Assembly (NCBI GenBank): GCA_900542985.1 | Contig: UQPQ01000004.1 | Location: 22,692-86,691, forward strand | Length of the DNA stretch: 64,000 bases | Direction: 5' to 3' | DNA from: an uncultured Bacteroides sp. | GTDB lineage: Bacteria > Bacteroidota > Bacteroidia > Bacteroidales > Bacteroidaceae | Notes under the pieces: generated by a model | Databases searched by the model: none | Told to the model about the DNA's origin: nothing | What the model saw: only the letters and a program-made list of their open reading frames with translations | Program-made: the position numbers and the translations under genes | Shown here: one piece after another, positions 10,978-53,095 of the stretch | Layout of the letters: every line of letters starts with the position of its first letter | Position numbering within the stretch: the first letter of the stretch is position 1

Positions 10978-11061
10978 CGACGACGTCGGCTGTACAATCG
11001 TCAGCGTTGATTATACAGCCAACGACGACAACTCTGCAATCGGCGACGGCGATTAAATCCT
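10978..11061. repeat. 84-bp element of four 21-bp units (copy 1)
   Basis: Four units start at 10978, 10999, 11020 and 11041. Each follows a pattern near C-R-N-CGNCGTYGG-N-TGTACAGC. Unit 1 is the best preserved (CGACGACGTCGGC, then TGTACAAT). It lies between the tsf terminator and the end of the leftward lytic transglycosylase gene. Three more elements of the same size and register are at 26296, 40093 and 52841. Confidence 0.85.
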
Positions 11062-26295: not shown

Positions 26296-26379
26296 CACCG
26301 TCGTTGTCTGTACAGCCGGCGGCGTTGGTTATGCAGACAGCGATGTCGGCTGTACAGCCGACGACGTCGGACGAAGCAT
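26296..26379. repeat. 84-bp element of four 21-bp units (copy 2)
   Basis: Units start at 26296, 26317, 26338 and 26359. Units 1 and 3 end with TGTACAGC, and unit 4 starts CGACGACGTCGG. The junction of units 3 and 4 holds the odd palindrome AGCCGACG-A-CGTCGG. The element follows the efp terminator by 27 bp and precedes the glycosyltransferase gene. Confidence 0.88.
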
Positions 26380-32946: not shown

Positions 32947-32987
32947 AACAGCTTTTTGAAAAAGTAATGGATATAAATGGCTTTTTC

Positions 32988-33150
32988 ATGGCAGGTCTTC
33001 TGACTGATTCCTCCCCAAAGGCGACCTTCCCGCAAGTGTATTGCAGTGGCTGTATATGATACTTGGCCTTGGTTCTTTGGAAATCACAGCAGCGGGTACT
33101 GTTACCGATTTTCACGATATTCCCTTTTGAAACGCTTGTGTTACCATTAA
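32988..33150 (-). promoter_or_regulatory. Cobalamin (B12) riboswitch
   Basis: The leftward strand shows, in order, AAAAGGGAATATCGTGAAAA, CCCGCTGCTGTGATT (33096-33082), GCCACTG (33050-33044), CGGGAAGG and the B12 box AGTCAGAAGACCTGCC (33005-32990). These match the conserved core of cobalamin riboswitches. The box ends 44 nt before the nrdD start. No clear intrinsic terminator is seen between, so control may act on translation. Confidence 0.9.
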
Positions 33151-33158
33151 AAGCTGTA

Positions 33159-33166
33159 CAAAGATA
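33159..33166 (-). promoter_or_regulatory. -7 box for the nrdDG transcript
   Basis: Read leftward, TATCTTTG matches TAnnTTTG and would start transcription just before the riboswitch. At the -33 distance there is only TTTT. Confidence 0.5.
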
Positions 33167-40009: not shown

Positions 40010-40092
40010 TGTATACATTCTCTGTTTGTAAGAATAGTGTATAGATCTGCTACAGTTATAGCCGGTTGGTTGTACAGATATTTCCTTGAATC

Positions 40093-40176
40093 CGTCGTCG
40101 GTGAATGTAGAGCCGACGCCGTCGGATGAAGAGCCAATGTCGTCGGTTGTACAGCCGGTGCCGTCGGCTACACGAT
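40093..40176. repeat. 84-bp element of four 21-bp units (copy 3)
   Basis: Units start at 40093, 40114, 40135 and 40156. Unit 3 ends TCGGTTGTACAGC, and units 1 and 2 end AGAGC instead of ACAGC. It lies between the trxA-group terminator and the convergent end of the Imm17-like gene. Confidence 0.87.
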
Positions 40177-52840: not shown

Positions 52841-52924
52841 CGCCGTCGTTGAATGCAGAGTTGCCGTCGTTGGATATATAATCAGCGTTGTCGGTTGTAC
52901 AGCCGACGTCGTCGTCTTGAATTT
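52841..52924. repeat. 84-bp element of four 21-bp units (copy 4)
   Basis: Units start at 52841, 52862, 52883 and 52904. Unit 3 ends TGTCGGTTGTACAGC, and unit 2 has decayed to TGGATATATAAT. It lies about 70 bp past the purA terminator, in the intergenic stretch that also holds the small RNA candidate at 53028. Confidence 0.86.
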
Positions 52925-53027
52925 ACGAATGGAAGGATAGATTTATATCTATGGTAGTGAATGCTTTTCTTGCTGATAAACTGGGTTAAAGAATACCGGT
53001 AAAAGAAGTCTGTTTACAAAAGGGCAT

Positions 53028-53089
53028 AAAAAAAGGAGTACCGCTGTACTCCAACCTTTGTTAACCTTAAATCTAATACTATGAAAAAC
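53028..53089 (-). ncRNA. Candidate short RNA, about 62 nt
   Basis: Read leftward: start near 53089 (after the promoter at 53096-53126), then a core GTATTAGATTTAAGGTTAAC, then a stem GGAGTAC with GTACTCC (53052-53035) and TTTTTTT (53034-53028). A complete promoter, about 60 nt, and an intrinsic terminator make a free-standing small RNA. The core resembles the repeated motif of the larger candidate at 29634. It may belong to a described Bacteroides RNA family such as Bacteroidales-1 or FopS, which I cannot check. Confidence 0.65.
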
Positions 53090-53095
53090 ACAGTG

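Follow-up and report, generated by a model that had tools for sequence, protein, structure and literature searches.

Palindromic four-unit arrays between the genes of gut Bacteroidales often lie upstream of long HU-HIG genes and are probably read by HU-HIG-type proteins

The window, the whole 64,000-nucleotide stretch of Bacteroides DNA analysed here, carries four copies of one family within a large class of gut Bacteroidales arrays, each made of about four back-to-back palindromes lying between genes. The class is apparently undescribed to date; a literature search, with most subscription papers outside its reach, returned no description of such arrays in Bacteroides. In other genomes, arrays of this build very frequently stand upstream of the genes for long HU-HIG proteins, and some of these upstream arrays belong to families that are also dispersed. 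We consider it fairly probable (roughly 0.6) that each array family serves one long HU-HIG paralogue as its cognate binding platform; this paralogue would regulate its own gene and control primase-helicase genes in trans, with solo arrays as derivatives. A DNA-binding protein of this lineage-specific HU type is probably the reader of the arrays. HU-HIG proteins are numerous in Bacteroidales, and we know of no DNA target for them. If the arrays are these targets, each long protein has its own binding site upstream, which makes the function of a large family directly testable, and a large share of the intergenic repeats in gut Bacteroidales would be explained.

The first-pass annotation had described four 84-bp elements, each of four 21-bp units, and all four were recovered. 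Their positions, and that of a possible further unit, are as follows.

10978..11061, no strand assigned: array copy 1, four 21-bp units; palindromic core at ~10978-11051; between convergent genes
26296..26379, no strand assigned: array copy 2; palindromic core at ~26296-26369; flanked by elongation factor P and glycosyltransferase genes, both on the + strand
40062..40077, + strand: possible extra detached unit part (CCGGTTGGTTGTACAG), left of copy 3, identified by eye
40093..40176, no strand assigned: array copy 3; palindromic core at ~40093-40166; convergent ORFs on either side
52841..52924, no strand assigned: array copy 4; palindromic core at ~52841-52914; a + strand ORF on each side

The copies keep a common register, as the annotation had proposed: in 4/4, unit 3 starts with CA, and unit 4 starts with CG and lacks the TGTACAGC end. 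All four lie outside ORFs of at least 100 aa, in gaps of 50-374 bp, which bears out their intergenic placement. The similarity also withstood a comparison with shuffled DNA, leave-one-out profile scores being 47.0, 76.8, 64.4 and 65.6 for copies 1-4 against a maximum of 7.4 in 40 sets of Markov-shuffled window intergenic DNA per element. As to whether elements or units are copied, the whole element is favoured, because same-register identity (pairwise 0.57-0.75) exceeded identity at a one-unit shift in 4/6 pairs of window copies; the exceptions were copy 1 with copy 3 and copy 1 with copy 4. The palindromy, the class-wide spread and the HU-HIG association are new beyond the earlier description. 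Namely, each of the four elements aligns with its reverse complement when shifted by 10 bp, giving a palindromic core of ~74 bp, so that dyad symmetry and tandem repetition occur together. The array motif of the family is CGNCGNCG/TGTACA. No flanks common to the window copies were seen, and neither an HU-HIG gene nor a VapE/primase gene was found in the window. At the gathering threshold, Rfam matched the window only at a cobalamin riboswitch (32973-33162, minus strand) and at FopS, a family of paralogous sRNAs (53025-53091, minus strand, ~100 bp from array copy 4), with none at the array elements.

That the four-unit intergenic elements form a dispersed family is supported by another Bacteroidaceae genome (G037), where a sequence-only profile of the four copies gave 49 matches falling in at least 28 places, a lower bound since the search scored no more than 150 candidates per genome. 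Among the 30 other genomes searched with this profile, one besides G037 gave a single weak match (G091) and 28 gave none. Reading 20 of the 28 places in G037 yielded a consensus near YGNCGNCGNCRTYTGTACARA, repeated, with inverted outer arms that are absent from the window copies. G037 is not a close relative: glycosyltransferase identity is 68% there and reaches 83-84% in three genomes that lack the window family. Across 80 Bacteroidaceae loci around the glycosyltransferase gene the profile found no convincing match, the best scores (15.8 and 12.0) belonging to arrays of other sequence. A pattern search with the window unit gave at most 3 matches in any of 301 family genomes, similar to the backward control, and no match in viral contigs. 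Of the 11 HU-HIG matches in G037, two have an array of the window family immediately upstream:

C30:256-636, HU-HIG match, with a window-family array at 825-904
C29:104157-104552, HU-HIG match, with a window-family array at 103974-104054

Beside an HU-HIG gene of the same genome (L275), further tandem repeats (GGGATGCGTGTGCATTCT) occur in addition to the window-type array.

A palindrome scan of the 80 glycosyltransferase loci revealed similarly built elements that differ in sequence. A detector combining a period of 20-24 with dyad symmetry returned 98 matches (score ≥8.5) in 1.47 Mb, some of them simple repeats or terminators, against 0 (score ≥8) in 0.75 Mb of Markov sequence. At a stricter threshold the density was 49.9/Mb in Bacteroidaceae loci (70 in 1.40 Mb), 33.1/Mb in P. 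massiliensis (53 in 1.6 Mb) and 30.0/Mb in B. xylanisolvens (12 in 0.4 Mb), and the window gave 3 matches, copy 1 falling below the threshold. The same threshold gave 6 matches in an order-wide sample (0.24 Mb), 4 in a phylum-wide sample (0.35 Mb), three of which resemble simple repeats, and 0 arrays in 0.20 Mb of E. coli. With a control period of 14-17 the counts were 9 in the loci, 4 in P. massiliensis and 2 in B. xylanisolvens; with one of 25-28 they were 2, 3 and 2. The palindromic unit is 21-23 bp long across the class, with about four units per array; run length peaks at four units (52/124 at eight half-units, 10/124 above ten), by a measure that begins from four central units and is hence biased towards four.

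Array families are mostly genome-specific, some being common to several species. P. massiliensis has four main families of 6 to 16 copies each in 1.6 Mb, the listings of families A and D overlapping. Family A arrays of this species (G002:C1, L101-L180) lie within a ~340-380-bp element with terminal inverted repeats, and their copies differ by 87-88% transitions. A purine-pyrimidine code was considered and rejected: the excess of transitions seen in family A (914:131, where its flanks give 467:363 and 383:281) is not general, the transition fraction being 0.55 across all arrays and 0.41 in family C.

Long HU-HIG proteins (PF18291) consist of an HU domain and a winged helix. At a score of ≥9.5, an array was found ~70-270 bp upstream of 24/27 readable long HU-HIG genes, against 1/17 short or atypical genes, which include L289 and L290 (Fisher p 3.6e-8). 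This p value overstates the independence of the sample, because several of the 27 genes appear to be orthologues by array similarity (e.g. L291/L304; L321 and a P. massiliensis gene), and the cut between long and short was set on the first sample, after seeing it. With a lenient score of ≥8 the contrast is weaker (26/27 long, 3/17 short), short genes L289 and L310 being counted in at that level. In the first sample (3.47 Mb, 11 ORFs), an array lay within 500 bp upstream in 5/5 long genes (199-236 aa; two arrays weak, 8.2 and 8.3), in 0/5 short genes (145-170 aa) and in 0/1 of 431 aa, with a background of 72/1500 ORFs; two of the short genes have a detector match farther off, at 534 and 624 bp.

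Among fresh genes from B. xylanisolvens, 11 long ones were taken, their length read from the open frame, of which 2 are hidden by N; 8/9 of the readable ones have an array, its middle 97-268 bp from the start, and the exception (L306) matches the domain only in part. Upstream of two long genes of this species, L300 and L302, N runs occupy the expected array position. The short genes gave an array in 1/9 (L312), with a hairpin of 8.5 at L310 and a match at 535 bp at L315. Elsewhere, short L289 has a weak upstream match (8.3) and short L290 a poorly periodic hairpin ~420 bp upstream. In plasmid-collection records, which carry chromosomal genes, a long HU-HIG query matched at 15 places distributed over 13 records. 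Only the best match per record was read, the query's own gene included, and 13/13 have an array of ≥9.5 upstream, one of them in Parabacteroides. Six array-neighbouring HU proteins were scanned and belong to the HU-HIG family, with PF18291 scores of 63.9-115.3 bits against a cut-off of 26.2. A structure model of the partner protein has an HU fold at 32-119 and a winged helix (pLDDT about 90) at 134-203. One B. xylanisolvens genome holds 34 PF18291 matches (E up to 0.001), the weakest of which are probably ordinary HU.

To relate upstream and dispersed arrays, nine B. xylanisolvens arrays lying upstream of HU-HIG genes were compared with dispersed arrays from 0.4 Mb of their own genome and from 1.6 Mb of P. 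massiliensis. Four of the nine have dispersed matches in their own genome (L297 0.81, L299 0.84, L301 0.69, L312 0.66) and 5/9 have no dispersed relative in the 0.4 Mb sampled; no P. massiliensis array exceeded 0.61, the shuffled maximum being 0.59. The L301 family has no match in seven other genomes; of its six places in B. xylanisolvens, one precedes the estimated start of a VapE primase-helicase gene, 3.3 Mb away, by ~0.2 kb. The L312 family likewise occupies six places in B. xylanisolvens, with weak matches in 2/7 other genomes. Family D of P. massiliensis stands upstream of a 207-aa HU-HIG gene and is also dispersed. The arrays at HU-HIG gene L316 and at primase-helicase gene L285, both of B. 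finegoldii TSDC17.2, were judged by eye to belong to one family. An HU-HIG gene is absent from the neighbourhood of most solo arrays.

Genes enriched near arrays in P. massiliensis and B. xylanisolvens carry VapE-like, DUF3874 and, mostly, BT4734-like primase domains; the same test also returned ORFs read out of the repeats themselves. An array lies upstream within 0.9 kb in 6/6 primase-helicase genes of the first sample, one of them weak (8.2). Among relatives found by protein similarity, 12 drawn from the 16 highest-ranked records (H6-H21), 10 have a canonical array upstream, the exceptions being L289 (weak, 8.3) and L290; for L293 and L295 the distance was counted from an internal match. 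A domain scan of four primase-helicase proteins found BT4734-like_N, VapE-like and DUF3874 together in two, while one lacks DUF3874 and one lacks BT4734-like_N. The gene adjoining the array in primase-helicase records is often a divergent HU-HIG gene. Because other primase-helicase genes carry an upstream array with no neighbouring HU-HIG gene (L285, L287 and three P. massiliensis genes), the partner of the arrays could be another protein. No relatives of the primase protein were found in viral contigs. Three VapE-type proteins of P. massiliensis (548-612 aa; L127:56 is an example) have adjacent arrays of families B and C upstream, and Pfam gave no primase domain in the one scanned.

The arrays are operator-like: about four dyad-symmetric sites, spaced two helical turns apart, would all present the same face of the DNA. 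Their cognate reader would be the long HU-HIG protein, in which an HU/IHF-type DNA-bending domain is fused to a winged helix. An HU-HIG gene bearing its own array upstream is probably autoregulated, and an array of the same family before a BT4734/VapE primase-helicase gene elsewhere, seen in two genomes, suggests control in trans. The remaining copies are solo intergenic arrays that may have arisen by some non-autonomous copying; the four of the window would be such solo copies, with G037 pointing to their cognate HU-HIG gene. A more speculative extension, which we hold only tentatively, is that each chromosome carries many mutually independent codes, every long HU-HIG protein and its own four-dyad array family co-diversifying by paralogue expansion. 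Nucleoprotein wrapping would then control the protein's own gene and, in trans, the primase-helicase mobile gene, and solo arrays would be relics or decoys in a genome-wide marking/restraining system.

Solo arrays look neutral once arisen, because orthologous copies diverge at the rate of their flanks: over eight orthologous pairs, 96/735 array sites differ against 333/2594 in flanks, with pairing lost at 23 sites and gained at 31, and two compensated pairs. Selection on the whole-element hairpin was rejected, with no sign of it in these orthologous arrays. Downstream of the glycosyltransferase gene in L042/L043, orthologous arrays differ at 31/92 sites, against 41/338 in flanks. Array presence varies among related species. 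Of 127 arrays, 17 overlap predicted ORFs. Both flanking genes could be assigned for 105; they are codirectional in 62 cases, convergent in 25 and divergent in 18, and spacers of these three kinds make up 57, 17 and 26% of the intergenic length. Insertion hot spots were rejected, as 15 pairs of unrelated arrays occupy the same spacer where 13.95 same-spacer pairs would be expected. A neighbour test over P. massiliensis, B. xylanisolvens and the window found no recurrent transposase beside arrays.

Divergence at the flank rate, with two compensated pairs, would also be expected of plain selfish repeats (REP- or MITE-like) mobilised by some transposase, for which proximity to HU-HIG genes would be hitch-hiking or a target preference. 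The terminal inverted repeats around P. massiliensis family A and the inverted outer arms of the G037 copies favour this account, which we nevertheless regard as improbable, if worth serious weighing. It does not predict an array at 24/27 long HU-HIG genes against 1/17 others. No target-site duplication was seen in six paired copies. The hallmarks of a MITE, terminal inverted repeats with such a duplication, give a mixed picture: family A has the repeats but no duplication was seen, and most family B copies, like those of the window, have no common flanks. Unrelated arrays are not in excess in common spacers. The RAYT domain is absent from 7/12 genomes searched, 5 of which have an array in the single locus examined, and a detector match of ≥9.5 occurs in only 3/9 RAYT regions (one a simple repeat), more than 1 kb from the RAYT gene. 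The arrays upstream of primase-helicase genes (6/6 and 10/12) would instead fit iteron-like replication or control sites of the BT4734/VapE primase-helicase, to which HU-HIG is merely accessory. This is quite unlikely, given that G037 has at least 28 arrays but no VapE-domain match, and that several HU-HIG genes have an array with no annotated primase in their ~1-kb flanks (L316, L319, L322, L323).

Even spacing, same-face geometry, intergenic position and tens of copies could suggest conserved chromosome-organising sites (parS- or matS-like) under selection, but the eight orthologous pairs diverge at the flank rate, pairing is lost about as often as gained, compensated pairs number two, and presence differs between related species, which leaves this reading with very little probability. 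Arrays do fold well, with a mean MFE of -35.5 against -17.5 for control intergenic DNA, and the + strand of window copy 2 gives a long hairpin. Even so, that they act as RNA hairpins, whether terminators, mRNA 3'-end protectors or small RNAs, is the least probable of these accounts: the transcribed strand shows at most a slight surplus of G-U relative to A-C (390 against 337), sense exceeds antisense stability in 35/62 codirectional cases (p 0.15), and neither strand of window copy 4 folds better than shuffled sequence. A structured RNA family was likewise rejected, with no Rfam match at the elements at the gathering threshold and no clear strand bias.

The preferred reading, a long HU-HIG protein with its own array family, invites comparison with known pairings of a protein and dispersed DNA sites. 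ParB-parS, MatP-matS and Noc-NBS use dispersed short palindromic sites for one DNA-binding protein, and those sites are single and conserved. The arrays are similarly dispersed and palindromic; they differ in forming arrays that are for the most part genome-specific and no better conserved than their flanks. REP/BIME elements with RAYT are species-specific dispersed intergenic palindromes, and the protein gene is adjoined by its own copies of the repeat. The arrays share with them the dispersed intergenic palindromes and a protein gene carrying its own repeat nearby, whereas the REP/BIME protein is a Y1 tyrosine transposase, the candidate partner here is an HU-winged-helix protein, and the arrays, unlike REP/BIME, have about four tandem units ~22 bp apart. 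Membership of the REP-RAYT class was rejected: Y1_Tnp (PF01797) occurs in 5/12 genomes and is absent from 7/12, and in 0/9 RAYT regions is the RAYT gene flanked by arrays (within 1 kb, score ≥9.5).

The closest described element found is the BrickBuilt MITE of Porphyromonas gingivalis. In the parts of its description available to us (PMC4596501), BrickBuilt is always intergenic, has 23-nt tandem repeats within a dispersed element and occurs in 19 copies in ATCC 33277; repeat number ranges from 1 to 22.8, leader and tail parts with terminal repeats are included, and BLASTn matches were in P. gingivalis only, with none outside. As far as those parts go, it resembles the arrays in being a dispersed intergenic element of Bacteroidales with tandem units of ~23 nt, and differs from them in that 'palindrom' is absent from the main text and no cognate protein is mentioned (PMC4596501). 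Membership was rejected, since BrickBuilt has a 23-nt unit in strongly variable number and the arrays have units of 21-23 bp with a peak at four.

HU-HIG proteins have reportedly expanded in Bacteroidetes, with a predicted role in recognising invading elements. To our knowledge, the account of that expansion names no DNA target for them. The expansion (Burroughs et al. 2017) concerns the same Pfam family, PF18291, as the partner proteins, and the arrays would be its target. Three HU-HIG proteins (P0051, P0058 and P0074) resemble one paralogue in their N-terminal part and another in their C-terminal part, a chimaeric look that may reflect a domain swap or an assembly artefact.
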